From: Lachnospiraceae bacterium
GTDB lineage: Bacteria > Bacillota > Clostridia > Lachnospirales > Lachnospiraceae
Assembly: GCA_910574885.1 (NCBI GenBank)
Contig: CAJTDD010000002.1
Span: 62,001 to 126,000, forward strand
Direction of reading: 5' to 3'
Length of the DNA: 64,000 nt
Shown piece after piece: positions 6,151-64,000 of the stretch. The notes under the pieces were generated by a model that did no database searches, was not told the DNA's origin, and saw nothing but the letters and a program-made list of their open reading frames with translations. The position numbers and the translations under genes are program-made. How positions within the stretch are numbered: position 1 is the stretch's first letter; each line of letters begins with the position of its first letter.

Positions 6151-7820
6151 TCCTTCCGATAGAACGCTATTCCGTAACAATCAATCTTCCGATACCCTTC
6201 TGTACGCAATTCTTCCATATATCTTTTATCATATATTTGCTGCAACGCCTTTTGGGCGTCATTTTCCAACTCGTCCACAGAATCCGAAACCTTCACTTCC
6301 ACAATAAACGACCTGCCCCGCAGCGACGGGCTTTTCACCATTATGTCTAAACGCCCATTCCCCGATTCACGATTCGATTTCACCAGATAATTCTCACTCT
6401 GGCTCAATATCCCTGTCAGAAAACCATGATAAAAGTTTTCCGCGCTGTCATAAAAACTAATGGTCCGGAAAAGCTGGCCGTTTAATATATCCGTCATCCT
6501 CTGGGCGTCCCCCTCCTCCATTGCACGGTACAAGTCATGAAAATCCTCCTTCTTTATAGCGGCTTTCATCCAGTTCAGAATCGTATTTTCATAGATGGTC
6601 ATAACTTCTGTGTTAGGGATACGCACCTTTAAAAATATATACTTCCCTCTAAAGTATTCACTATCTTTCGTCAGATACCCTGTAAAATAGAGAAAATTCC
6701 ACAGGTTCTCCCCATTACTGTACATATCCCCATAGGTAACTTCTTCATGAACCTGAACGTCTAAAGTTCCACCGCCTAAAAGTGTTTCAATCTGCCCTTT
6801 TGTTTCCCGGTCTGCCCTGGCAATTAAATCCTTTATAATATCATTAGAACTAGTATTAATCCAATATGAGTGTGGGAAGGCATTGACATCTGCATATAAA
6901 TCATACAGAAAATTAATGACACTCCACGGGTTATAGACCGCCGTGCCGCCAAATGTGTATCCGTCATACCATTCTTTCATAACCGGGAAACGGCTCTCTA
7001 CACCATAGTAAGCCATCATTTGCCGCACTTCCGCTTCTGTAAAACCAAAATGTTCACTATATCTCTGGTCAAGTACAGATATAATATTGAGATGATTCAA
7101 TCCGGTAAATATACTCTCCTTTGAAATCCTCAGACACCCCGTAATTACTGCAAACTGCAGATAATCATTCGTTTTCAGCGCAGCCTCAAACAATGAACGG
7201 ATAAATCCCACCATCTTTTCATAAAAACCTCTAAAATATGCATTTTCTAAAGGCACATCATACTCATCAATTAAAATAACTGTATTCTTTCCTGTAATCT
7301 TATACATACATTGACAGAAAAGCTGCAGCGAATTTCTTATATTTTTTTCCTCTGCCTTTCCATCTGCAATAGCAGTATACCATTCATATTCTCTGGATGT
7401 CAGACGTTCTTTTCCCCTTTCTATCGTGTCTCTGTGCCGTTCAAATTCCATGATAACCGCATTCTCAATCATATAATATGCCATATCATAGTCTTCCTGC
7501 TTTGCTGACTTCAATGTCAGTTCAAATACAGGATACATTCCCATCTGACTTGTATAATTTTCTCCTGCTTCTATAATCTTCATTCCCTGAAACAGACTTT
7601 TATTCTGTTCATTTCTTTTTTCATGCCCAGTATCTTCAAAAAAATATCGGAGCATACTCAAATTCAATGTCTTTCCAAATCTTCTTGGACGAAGAAACAG
7701 ATTTACTTCTCCTTTCAAATCCAGCAGTTCCTTGATAAACATAGTCTTATCTATATAGCAGTAACCTTCTTTTATTATTTTTTCAAAATTATCAACACCG
7801 ATTGGCAATGGTTTCTTCAT
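6108..7820 (-). CDS. AAA-ATPase-like/PD-(D/E)XK nuclease fusion (DUF1703 type), copy 1
   Basis: A 570-residue protein. The N-terminal AAA-ATPase-like domain has an unusual P-loop in [13 protein letters not shown] (about residues 43-55) and a Walker [13 protein letters not shown]. The C-terminal domain has [12 protein letters not shown] and [10 protein letters not shown], fitting the D...ExK core of the PD-(D/E)XK nuclease superfamily. The family is abundant in gut Clostridia and Bacteroidetes and its role is unknown; defence or mobile-element function is only speculation. I start at the ATG at 7820, which lies 6 bases after GGAGGG and matches the start of copy 2. It follows copy 2 by 29 bases, so the two probably form one transcript. 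Confidence 0.88.
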
Positions 7821-61331: not shown

Positions 61332-62258
61332 ATGAACAAATTAGAAAAATTAGTTTCAAACTACATGAAAACCTGTGAAACCATGAAAAAGCTGGACAAG
61401 AAAACACTGAAAGCATATCGGATTGATTTGGCACAATTCCAGGCATTTATGCTGGGACGCCCTGATTTTGAAGATAAGGCAGCCATAAGCGATTATATTT
61501 CCTCTCTTCATAACCAGTATAAACCAAGGACTACCAAAAGAAAGATTGCCACTCTAAAGGCTTTTTTTCACCATTTGATTTATGAAGAAATCATCGCGGC
61601 AAATCCATTTGACAAAATAAACGTAAAATTCCGGGAACCTCAAATACTGCCGCGCACGATACCAGAAGCCACGATTGCTGACTTTCTCTCCGCAATGTAC
61701 CGGCAAAAGGCTCTCGCAGACACAGTATATCAATATAATGCGGTTCTTCGCGACATCACTATTATTGAGCTGCTCTTTTCTACAGGTGTTCGGATATCTG
61801 AGCTATGTGCATTGACACTGCGGCAAGTGGATCTTGTGTCCTATAAAATAATCATTTATGGAAAAGGCTCGAAAGAACGGTTGATACAAATCGGAAATGA
61901 TGATGTAAAAAAGGTAGTGTCTGAATATTATGCCGCTTTTCAGACAGATATTCATTCTACCGGGTGGTTCTTTATTAACCGGCTTCACCAGCGATATTCC
62001 GAGCAGTCCGTGCGGGCTATGATTGTAAAGTACTTAAAATTGGCTATGATTGATATGCATATTACGCCGCATATGTTCCGTCATTCTTTTGCTACTTTGC
62101 TGCTGGAAGCTGATGTTGATATTCGATATATACAAAAGATGCTTGGGCATAGCTCTATCAAAACAACGGAAATATATACGAGCGTGTCAATGGCAAAGCA
62201 GAATAATATTTTGACGACGAAACATCCGAGGAATTTTATGGAATTTAATGGATGTTAA
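61332..62258 (+). CDS. tyrosine recombinase/integrase (XerC/XerD-like)
   Basis: A 308-residue site-specific recombinase. The N-terminal SAM-like core-binding domain (YRIDLAQFQAFM ... YKPRTTKRKIATLKAFFHHLI) is followed by the catalytic domain with Arg (LLFSTGVRISELCAL), Lys (IYGKGSKERLIQI), H-x-x-R (HMFRHSFATLL), His (MLGHSSIKTTEIYTSV) and Tyr in YTSV. It may move a genomic island or act in inversion; its site is not visible here. The start follows AAGGAG. It marks the boundary between the normal chromosome and AT-rich DNA. Confidence 0.93.
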   Translation: MNKLEKLVSNYMKTCETMKKLDKKTLKAYRIDLAQFQAFMLGRPDFEDKAAISDYISSLHNQYKPRTTKRKIATLKAFFHHLIYEEIIAANPFDKINVKFREPQILPRTIPEATIADFLSAMYRQKALADTVYQYNAVLRDITIIELLFSTGVRISELCALTLRQVDLVSYKIIIYGKGSKERLIQIGNDDVKKVVSEYYAAFQTDIHSTGWFFINRLHQRYSEQSVRAMIVKYLKLAMIDMHITPHMFRHSFATLLLEADVDIRYIQKMLGHSSIKTTEIYTSVSMAKQNNILTTKHPRNFMEFNGC

Positions 62259-62669
62259 TGTGGCGTTTGTTTTCTGGGGTATTTGAGAGGGGAAGCAGCA
62301 AACGGAGATTTGGTGGGTGTTTGCTGCTTTTCGATTGTTGTTATAAATCTATTTCTTTAGCCAGATTTGACTCAGGATGCCTTGCCATGGGGTCTGCTTT
62401 ATTTACTATATTATCACGTTAAATATTCCCAGTTATCCTTTTGTGGGTTTAACAACAAAATATATATAATACCTGTAACCTCATTTTCTTTATATCACAG
62501 AGTCTCCATCAATTCAACCATGTTTTTATAAACAATCAAATATGTGCCACTTCTTATGGTTTAATTGGTATCATTCTATAATAAAACTTCTTATATTTAT
62601 TAACAGAGGATAATTTATAGTTATCTATTATTTATGTTATACTCTTATAGAAATCGGGAGGGTTTTAAC
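62259..62669. other. AT-rich intergenic region at island boundary
   Basis: About 410 bases without a credible gene. It holds the integrase terminator (62294-62331) and, at its end, a TATACT -10-like box (62638-62643) without a good -35 box, then GGGAGG (62656-62661). Base composition becomes markedly more AT-rich than the preceding 60 kb. Confidence 0.5.
62294..62331 (+). terminator. rho-independent terminator of the integrase gene
   Basis: AGCAGCAAAC (62294-62303) pairs with GTTTGCTGCT (62319-62328), followed by a short T-run (TTT). Confidence 0.7.
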
Positions 62670-64000
62670 ATGGATTGGTCTTGCATAACAAGTTCACGTT
62701 TTGAAGAACTGGCATGCTTATACACAAGAGATGTTTACAAAGAGTTCACTTGGATTCCAACAAAGAAAACACGAGATGGAAATAAAGATGGTGAATTCGA
62801 AGAGGAAATTGATACTTTAAAAATGTACTATAAAGGATGGTATGAAGCAAAATATACTATAGAACCATTGAAATCAATTCCTAAATCACATATGGATTCC
62901 ACTCTCGTTTCTGGTATTTTAGACGGATACGTTTGCTATATTATTTTTATAACTAATGGGAAAATAACAAAAGAGTTTCGCCGTAGGGCAAAAGCAATAT
63001 TAGCACCTCATAAAATAGATGTGGATTTTGTGGACGGTGAAATGTTAGAAGAATGGCTTTTCCGAACGCCTTCTGTTTATAATGTATTTTTTGAAGATCA
63101 TATTAATGATTTTTTACCAATAGTTCCCGTAATTGAAATAGACGATATTTGTTTTTTTGATGGATATATGACTCCATCAGCATTAATTGCACCTATATCC
63201 AAATTACAACAGGGAAACGAGTACTTTCTTTACATCAGTATACGTTCAAATATACACACCAATGTTGATATCAAATGGAATTTATCCTCTTTATATGTCC
63301 TTCCAGTGAGAGGGGCAGATAATGATTATCCCCTTACTCCAGGATTTAATTCATATATGATTAAGGTTTTGGCTAAAGAAGCTTTATCAGATTCATTCAC
63401 AGTCGAACTAATTAGTGATAAAAAAAAGGTCGCTAAGTATACCTTGCCACACTTTACTATTGAAGAAGATGATGAACCTCAATTATCTTATAGCAGTCAA
63501 ACTGCCATCATACAAGAAATATATAATTACACAATGATTGAAAAGTCTGATAATCTGGTCGTTTCTATTATTGGTAAAAGCGGAAGTGGGAAAAGTTATC
63601 TATTAAGAAAAATTGCAAAGAATTTATTAAACAAAAATATAAATTTGCTTTCATTGGAGTTATCAGATAAGACTGGCGAGAATGCGGTGGCTGTTTGTAA
63701 GTTGATTTTATTTCTTAATTTTGGAAATCTGTATACTATATCCAAAGAAGCATTTAATGAATTGATTCGGGATTCAGTAAATCTTCCATTAGAAATATAT
63801 TATCAGCTAAAAGAAGGAACTAATAACCAAATAGTAGCAATTAATATTGTCAAACAATTAAGCGAACTATTAGTTAATTCTCCTTATTCTTTAATAATGA
63901 AGAAAAATATTTTAGATAAAACGATAGCATATATAATTATCGATGATTTACATAAAGCAACCTCTGATATATATCCGATATTAAAAAATATTTTAGAAGA
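62670..64000 (+). CDS. Mrr-like nuclease fused to P-loop NTPase (candidate STAND/AVAST-type defence protein), 3' end cut
   Basis: From the ATG at 62670, 443 residues run open to the window edge. Residues 10-62 match the restriction-endonuclease (Mrr_cat-like) core: SRFEELACLY, then TRDGNKDGEFE (Asp40) and WYEAKYT (Glu59-x-Lys61), i.e. E...D...ExK. A beta-rich region (about 140-280) follows. A P-loop NTPase has Walker A GKSGSGKS (302-309) and Walker B YIIIDDLHKA (421-430). The same order of nuclease then NTPase is seen in AVAST-type STAND antiphage proteins. GGGAGG is 8 bases before the start. Very AT-rich codons suggest transfer; it lies just behind an integrase. The target is unknown. Confidence 0.72.
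   Translation, partial: MDWSCITSSRFEELACLYTRDVYKEFTWIPTKKTRDGNKDGEFEEEIDTLKMYYKGWYEAKYTIEPLKSIPKSHMDSTLVSGILDGYVCYIIFITNGKITKEFRRRAKAILAPHKIDVDFVDGEMLEEWLFRTPSVYNVFFEDHINDFLPIVPVIEIDDICFFDGYMTPSALIAPISKLQQGNEYFLYISIRSNIHTNVDIKWNLSSLYVLPVRGADNDYPLTPGFNSYMIKVLAKEALSDSFTVELISDKKKVAKYTLPHFTIEEDDEPQLSYSSQTAIIQEIYNYTMIEKSDNLVVSIIGKSGSGKSYLLRKIAKNLLNKNINLLSLELSDKTGENAVAVCKLILFLNFGNLYTISKEAFNELIRDSVNLPLEIYYQLKEGTNNQIVAINIVKQLSELLVNSPYSLIMKKNILDKTIAYIIIDDLHKATSDIYPILKNILE

Follow-up and report, generated by a model that had tools for sequence, protein, structure and literature searches.

A predicted nuclease-STAND immune gene on a probably invertible cassette beside a tyrosine recombinase in a Lachnospiraceae bacterium

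The DNA analysed in this study is a stretch of 64,000 nucleotides (nt) from the draft genome of a Lachnospiraceae bacterium (contamination 7.9%), located at G000:C2:62001-126000 and called the window below; flanking DNA beyond its edge was included. Near its right end, at the locus labelled L002, a gene for a protein with a nuclease-like N-terminus and a STAND-like NTPase (the nuclease-STAND gene) is found behind a tyrosine recombinase gene (Table 1). The recombinase gene lies just left of one copy of an inverted repeat and points towards it. The repeat is 30 nt long and its two copies, which are 97% complementary, are 5111 nt apart (L002:2599-2628 and 7740-7769). On the 3' side of the nuclease-STAND gene the opposite strand carries a GT2 glycosyltransferase gene (Pfam E-value 6.7e-14) and a nucleotidyltransferase-like gene, the latter without a Pfam match and named from our own reading of its motifs. 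A bidirectional terminator-like hairpin is present between the two converging units (4 such sites were found in a terminator scan, 2.2 being expected). The hairpin behind the recombinase gene is absent from the listing of that scan because of its loop of 15. Outside the far (right) repeat, 32 nt from its core, there is an inward near-consensus promoter, TTGTCA-17-TATAAT, which none of 300 shuffles could equal, and the recombinase-side (left) flank has a promoter no better than shuffles (185 of 300). From this anatomy the nuclease-STAND gene quite probably belongs to a 5.1-kb cassette that the adjacent recombinase would flip, the one outside promoter reading either unit.

Table 1. Features of the locus in window coordinates, followed by the loci of related cassettes grouped by content
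Feature	Position or loci	Strand	Basis or remark
Tyrosine recombinase, 308 aa, predicted cassette invertase	61332..62258	+	Phage_integrase 2.6e-37
Terminator-like 11-bp perfect hairpin followed by TTTT, behind the recombinase gene	62293..62329	.	Inverted-pair search
Left inverted repeat, presumed recombinase site	62598..62627	.	Mate at G000:C2:129739-129768, outside the window
Nuclease-STAND gene	62670..64000, continuing to window-equivalent 65795	+	Open reading frame (ORF), homologues, model; 1041 aa
Mrr-like PD-(D/E)XK domain, residues 1-125	62670..63044	+	Conservation, model, hhalign via L077
Conserved D36-D40	62775-62789	+	
Conserved E59-x-K61	62844-62852	+	
Beta-rich domain, residues about 154-265	63129..63464	+	AlphaFold secondary structure
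P-loop GKSGSGKS, residues 302-309	63573..63596	+	G307 and K308 invariant in 36 homologues
Walker B-like strand ending D425-D426, residues 421-426	63930..63947	+	D425 invariant, D426 at least 90% conserved (36 homologues)
TIR cassettes	L083, L086, L093		
STAND-like cassettes	L066; L064		L064 under cut-off
Nuclease-STAND cassettes	L077, L084, L089		
Pentapeptide cassettes	L012, L063, L067, L087, L096		
ThsA versus TIR cassette	L062		
Cassettes with a unit not classed	L059, L060, L068, L075		

The recombinase scores 222.9 bits against XerC, under the cut-off of 335, and 99.3 bits against the integron-integrase model TIGR02249, under its cut-off of 265 bits. Residues R154, K178, H247, R250, H273 and Y282, which we take to be the catalytic R-K-H-R-H-Y set, are found in all 63 aligned homologues. 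The core of the repeat, GGATAAT-TTATA-GTTATC, presumably represents a tyrosine-recombinase site with inverted arms, which it resembles, and both sites carry the same spacer in inverted order. By these intact catalytic residues and these inverted sites with a common spacer, the cassette is likely to be a DNA-inversion system. The 23-base site core (up to 3 mismatches) has 4 copies in the genome, 2 here and 2 at a second cassette. An invertible promoter alone, between recombinase and gene, was considered and rejected, as the mate repeat is 5.1 kb off and behind the opposing unit.

The frame of the nuclease-STAND gene, which opens at 62634 or 62670, leaves the window and stops at G000:C2:127795, 1.8 kb beyond the edge; the protein has 1053 aa when read from the first ATG and 1041 aa when read from MDWS. 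The start at 62670 is the likely one, because most of the 36 aligned homologues start at or near MDWS. Among the candidates scored, 45 homologues were found (43 of them matching at least 98% of the query), given which the frame is real and not due to chance, and residue conservation was read from the 36 that were aligned. A restriction-like catalytic core had been proposed for the N-terminus in the first-pass annotation, and it is upheld: FEEL (residues 11-14), DGNKDG (36-41) and ExK (59-61) are in place, with conservation of 90% or more at each of F11, E12, D36, G37, N38, D40, E59 and K61. In the AlphaFold model this core is ordered as helix-strand-strand-helix-strand-helix-strand. No direct Pfam match to Mrr_cat was obtained at E<=1; the link to Mrr runs via the protein of L077, which exceeds the Mrr_cat cut-off and to whose N-terminus our protein aligns in hhalign (E 6.6e-5, probability 64%). 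The N-terminus modelled alone, from 5 sequences, reached a predicted local distance difference test score (pLDDT) of 62.6 and was not used for structure search.

The AlphaFold model of the whole protein, built for a database copy with 99% identity (P0001, pLDDT 86.6), starts with the alpha/beta core and continues with a beta-rich domain, the NTPase and then helical repeats that reach about residue 1013. Both the beta-rich stretch between the domains (about 155-265 in the model) and the large C-terminal repeat domain, which the first-pass annotation had respectively described and named as support to look for on extension, are thus present in it. At the C-terminus, in the motif DPRIW, D1037 and W1041 are invariant or at least 90% conserved. 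The earlier assignment of a P-loop NTPase, putatively STAND-like, also held, with invariant residues in both the P-loop and the Walker B-like strand and STAND proteins as the top three Foldseek matches, including the STAND-TPR protein 6mfv and Avs4 (8dgf); the best E-value was 6.1e-9 with a template modelling (TM) score of 0.25 by target, TM-scores being low across so large a model. The VIA structural comparison, by which residues 1-265 were barely covered, matched the NTPase to Orc/Cdc6 and other AAA+ proteins and also gave TPR-type chains. The Pfam STAND models remained under their cut-offs (nSTAND_NTPase5 20.7 vs 34, NACHT 16.9 vs 26.7, NB-ARC 12.7 vs 23.5), and ResIII was the sole Pfam NTPase match over threshold (22.6 vs 22.5). 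No match below E 0.1 was found among the sequences of solved structures.

In PADLOC three matches were obtained at E<=1 (mad8, DpdH and mad3), all within residues 307-410, the P-loop region, that of mad8 spanning residues 309-410 only. No Avs model was among them, and the membership of Avs suggested at first was not borne out. Defence genes downstream had also been named as support; none was recognised in the ORF lists, and PADLOC, applied there to the next two genes only, gave no match. The AT-rich setting is confirmed, with 28.8% G+C in the gene against 46.1% in the window, and both cassette units are near 29%. A viral or plasmid origin of the gene was considered and set aside, with no match in viral contigs, phages or plasmids. 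The gene was found in 0 of 60 other genomes (E<=1e-3) and in 0 of 290 others drawn from the class (E<=1e-30), and at least four nuclease-STAND loci came out of a pattern-based scan over 84,980 species genomes. One of these is a broken copy of the gene (L007:333-1431) with a site-like sequence upstream.

The arrangement at L002 recurs. Homologues of the recombinase at E<=1e-60 are present in 52 of 397 family genomes, own one included, and the best 40 of the 56 matches listed outside the own genome were fetched. More than 1.5 kb is available behind the gene in 31 loci (the three own loci included). In 19 of these an inverted repeat that is exact over 17 nt or more begins within 1 kb, whereas ten shuffled sets gave 0-1 each and 51 control anchors none. 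All of the 19 except L097 have the site core, and L012 is not counted among them as its repeat starts 1.47 kb from the recombinase. Leaving out the own genome, 17 of the 26 family loci with more than 2.5 kb show the layout. A held-out set at the order level (20 of 30 new recombinase matches fetched, which brings the fetched loci to 60) has the site core near the recombinase in 10 of 20 loci. Similar two-unit cassettes beside related recombinases were found in 17 other family genomes, 1 genome of the order and 3 Aliarcobacter plasmids, the last with repeats of 17-19 nt. The first-pass annotation was therefore right about an integrase in front of the gene, but this recombinase is not a bystander, since it belongs to a recurring layout with inverted repeats and two units. 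In viral contigs it was matched by one distant fragment only.

Of these 21 cassettes, 12 hold TIR, SIR2/Thoeris, STAND or nuclease-STAND genes, and four more hold pentapeptide genes. The opposite units are mostly of ATP-grasp, pyridoxal phosphate (PLP)-type, radical-SAM, carbamoyltransferase and glycosyltransferase (GT2) kinds, and methyltransferase also occurs. ThsA was matched in PADLOC at 1.1e-60 and 1.4e-103 in the Thoeris-like cassettes L062 and L120, where its gene faces a TIR gene head-on and inverted repeats enclose both (L062:12558-14912 and L120:10875-13024). Among 19 oriented cassettes (L002, L012 and 17 others), an inward promoter at p<=0.05 was present on the outer flank in 0 of 19 on the recombinase side and 7 of 18 on the far side (Mann-Whitney p 1.2e-4). 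Repeats of 67-126 nt are found in L068, L086, L089 and L096. They reach mostly inwards from the site, and additional half-site-like motifs can be seen by eye; their outer flanks diverge within 18 nt and both units carry the same leader. Further, the contig of L061:1-2026 ends after the recombinase, the site core and a 625-aa gene, and a cassette has probably been cut there.

Three copies of the recombinase exist in the source genome (100, 89 and 87% identity; next best 28%) and each has its own cassette, the first being that of the nuclease-STAND gene against the nucleotidyltransferase-like and GT2 genes. The second cassette (L012) has 59-bp perfect inverted repeats enclosing a pentapeptide gene opposite an ATP-grasp and aminotransferase unit; beyond the far repeat there is a related promoter, equalled by 1 of 300 shuffles. 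Its pentapeptide-repeat protein (L012:9513-10958), in which a hydrophobic stretch is seen by eye near the C-terminus, had no match in PADLOC, a scan made for this pentapeptide gene alone; the pentapeptide genes, which in five cassettes lie across from biosynthetic units, are possibly a new effector family. In the third cassette (C17, a scaffold joined at an ambiguous base and read in two pieces) a carbamoyltransferase gene, so named from our sequence reading, faces a second nuclease-STAND frame of 1111 aa. A profile comparison relates this protein to the first (E 2.2e-12 over 829 columns), and it exceeds the NB-ARC cut-off (26.1 vs 23.5); the site of the cassette is too divergent for the 23-base core pattern with 3 mismatches. 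In C17 the start of the second nuclease-STAND gene is found at the recombinase flank and the whole gene at the right contig end, which was considered as both orientations in one assembly and rejected as proof of inversion, because the repeated gene start fits one orientation. The two own-genome platforms L012 and L025 are alike at 90% over 4.7 kb up to the promoter-side site, where the likeness stops. A TraG-like gene in L025 and LytTR-like genes next to the promoter in both (named by eye), together with this relatedness, suggest that the two platforms may lie on conjugative-type elements.

With respect to orientation, in the cassettes where we could, by our own judgement, distinguish effector and partner, the effector is on the promoter side in 9 (L063, L067, L077, L084, L086, L087, L089, L093 and L096), while 6 have it next to the recombinase (L002, L012, C17, L064, L066 and L083). 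Four homologous unit pairs were found in opposite orientation between different genomes: carbamoyltransferase/nuclease-STAND in C17 vs L084 and L089 (47-50% and 28-29%), pentapeptide/aminotransferase in L012 vs L087 (24% and 27%), ThsA/TIR in L062 vs L120 (30% and 26%), and STAND/ATP-grasp in the Aliarcobacter cryaerophilus plasmids L123 vs L124 (27-30% and 39%). The pairs L063/L096, L086/L093 and L068/L125 have the same orientation. Moreover, a contig ends within 250 nt of the recombinase on the cassette side in 18 of the 60 fetched loci and on the other side in 1 (Fisher p 2e-5); the 18 comprise 11 of 40 family loci (10 with the site core) and 7 of 20 order loci. In 25 of the 45 nuclease-STAND homologue clusters the longest contig is 4.9-6.31 kb, which is the cassette size. 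Mixed orientations in the sampled populations would cause such breaks.

From these results we infer that the cassette is invertible and exchangeable and alternates which unit the promoter reads. The tyrosine recombinase would act on the two inverted repeats and flip the segment between them, and the outside promoter would read the nuclease-STAND gene or the opposing glycosyltransferase unit according to orientation. In the assembled state the promoter points towards the glycosyltransferase unit, with the nuclease-STAND gene lying distal to it, so that this gene is probably off or low. Once the segment is flipped, the nuclease-STAND protein would be made; its C-terminal repeats may sense a phage product, and ATP-driven assembly would then activate the nuclease to cut the DNA of the infected cell. 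This phage-defence role is predicted from the domains, the neighbours and the two Thoeris-like cassettes. The glycan unit probably alters surface chemistry, and the population could be split between cells whose surface or small-molecule chemistry is altered and cells that have an intracellular immune sensor, while the whole cassette could be exchanged at the sites. Extended to the related loci, we lean slightly towards a widespread class of immune loci in which a recombinase and a one-cassette docking platform carry an effector head-on to a biosynthetic or partner unit, with the promoter's choice made by inversion.

Other explanations can account for parts of these data. The loci may be an integron-like insertion platform, on which whole cassettes are inserted or swapped, the orientation is fixed on landing and inversion has no regulatory role. 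Plasmids pM830MA and pAFAEC (L124/L125) share 98% identity across the recombinase as far as the left site and 90% from about 20 nt inside the right site outward, and the content between differs, being ATP-grasp/STAND in one and GNAT/methyltransferase in the other; such sharing of flanks without content, seen also in L012/L025, is expected of this platform, as is the cassette shared site to site by the distant homologue loci L004 and L006 (89% over 5.7 kb). Two like sites in inverted order, however, are a substrate from which inversion is expected for tyrosine recombinases, and the contig ends just outside the site, as well as the convergent arrangement of the two units and the inward-pointing promoter at one side, also argue against fixed orientation, which makes this explanation unlikely. 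Less probably than the main reading, each unit supplies one half of a single immune system (a sensor or signal maker and an effector), and inversion changes their ratio or arms and disarms the system, as would suit L062 and L120, where ThsA and the ThsB-like TIR are split over both units. In line with this, the repeat starts 30 nt or less from the recombinase stop in L062, L064, L067, L068, L075 and L083, so that recombinase and proximal unit may share a transcript; in the window, on the other hand, a hairpin separates recombinase and repeat, and the ATP-grasp enzymes found opposite pentapeptide, TIR or STAND genes are a mixing unlike an obligate pair. An ordinary Avs-like defence gene beside an unrelated phage-type integrase would explain the nuclease-STAND-repeats order and the place of Avs4 among the best Foldseek matches, but it is highly improbable in view of the recurring recombinase, repeats and two-unit layout and the missing PADLOC Avs model.

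Certain results also weigh against a promoter-selecting inversion itself: the layout is absent from 9 of the 26 informative family loci and from 9 of the 10 held-out order-level loci with more than 2.5 kb, and the contig breaks could arise partly from repeats shared between cassettes. Its presence in 1 of those 10 indicates that only a part of the recombinase family is cassette-linked.

In the open-licence literature searched, no description of invertible cassettes of immune effectors was recognised, for the terms used and the results shown. In phage Mu G segment, P1 C segment and Hin-type inversion, a fixed outside element selects one of two gene sets by means of serine recombinases, whereas here a tyrosine recombinase, an immune effector set against a biosynthetic unit and an exchangeable segment are seen. 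Integrons likewise have a recombinase beside exchangeable cassettes and an outside promoter, features which the present loci share; unlike integrons, these have one cassette with two opposing units and inverted repeats, and the recombinase is under the IntI cut-off. For Avs proteins, one report gives the layout as an N-terminal nuclease-type effector, a central STAND NTPase and a C-terminal sensor (PMC12931631). The nuclease-STAND protein has the same order of effector, NTPase and C-terminal repeats and matches Avs4 in Foldseek; at 1041 aa it differs from Avs4 chains of 1534-1541 residues. To our knowledge Avs proteins are without a beta-rich domain between nuclease and NTPase, which is present here, and the gene is on a likely invertible cassette with no PADLOC Avs match. 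PinQ inversion in E. coli is reported to affect phage infection through a serine recombinase and to act on phage adsorption (PMC12529663); the likeness is that of a recombinase inversion bearing on phage infection, whereas here the expression of an intracellular immune gene would be concerned. Capsule phase variation in Bacteroides intestinalis alters the sensitivity to crAss001 (PMC8375218), and the partner unit here may act alike; in contrast, the abstract of that report describes alternate capsules, with no immune effector in the opposite phase. The cassettes L062 and L120 resemble Thoeris (ThsA/ThsB), but their genes are head-on between inverted repeats, with the orientation reversed between the two genomes.

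The usual picture of an intracellular immune system is of something permanently in place after its acquisition, whereas the anatomy described here predicts a two-position switch for the nuclease-STAND gene and, elsewhere, for TIR, STAND and even Thoeris-like genes. Such a switch would explain how a clone keeps a costly suicidal immunity, and it would make testable the question of bacteria hedging between changing their surface and arming an internal immunity. If true, flipping would diversify immunity inside a clone, the swapping of whole cassettes at the same sites would do so among lineages, and the recombinase with GGATAAT-N5-GTTATC-like repeats would be a new landmark for defence finders. 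As several cassette units are without defence annotation, this signature also offers a way to new effectors.

Distant nuclease-STAND homologues were found in three draft genomes, one of Erysipelotrichales and two of Lachnospiraceae (L004, L005 and L006), where the gene is head-on to GT2, methyltransferase and nucleotidyltransferase-like genes. Inverted repeats are carried by L004 and L006, and none was found in L005 inside its contig; the contigs of L004, which has only 38 nt outside its cassette, and of L005 stop at a far-side site. No recombinase is present within the 23 kb of L006; its genome record has one elsewhere at 59% identity, and the L004 and L005 records have only distant ones. The region L006:7109-16900 holds a SIR2-HerA pair (PADLOC 1.5e-153 and 3.9e-195), the cassette, whose repeat begins some 15 nt behind the pair, and, downstream of the cassette, a dCTP-deaminase-like gene with a coiled-coil-like tail. 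The cassette may be phase-variably appended to the SIR2-HerA operon.
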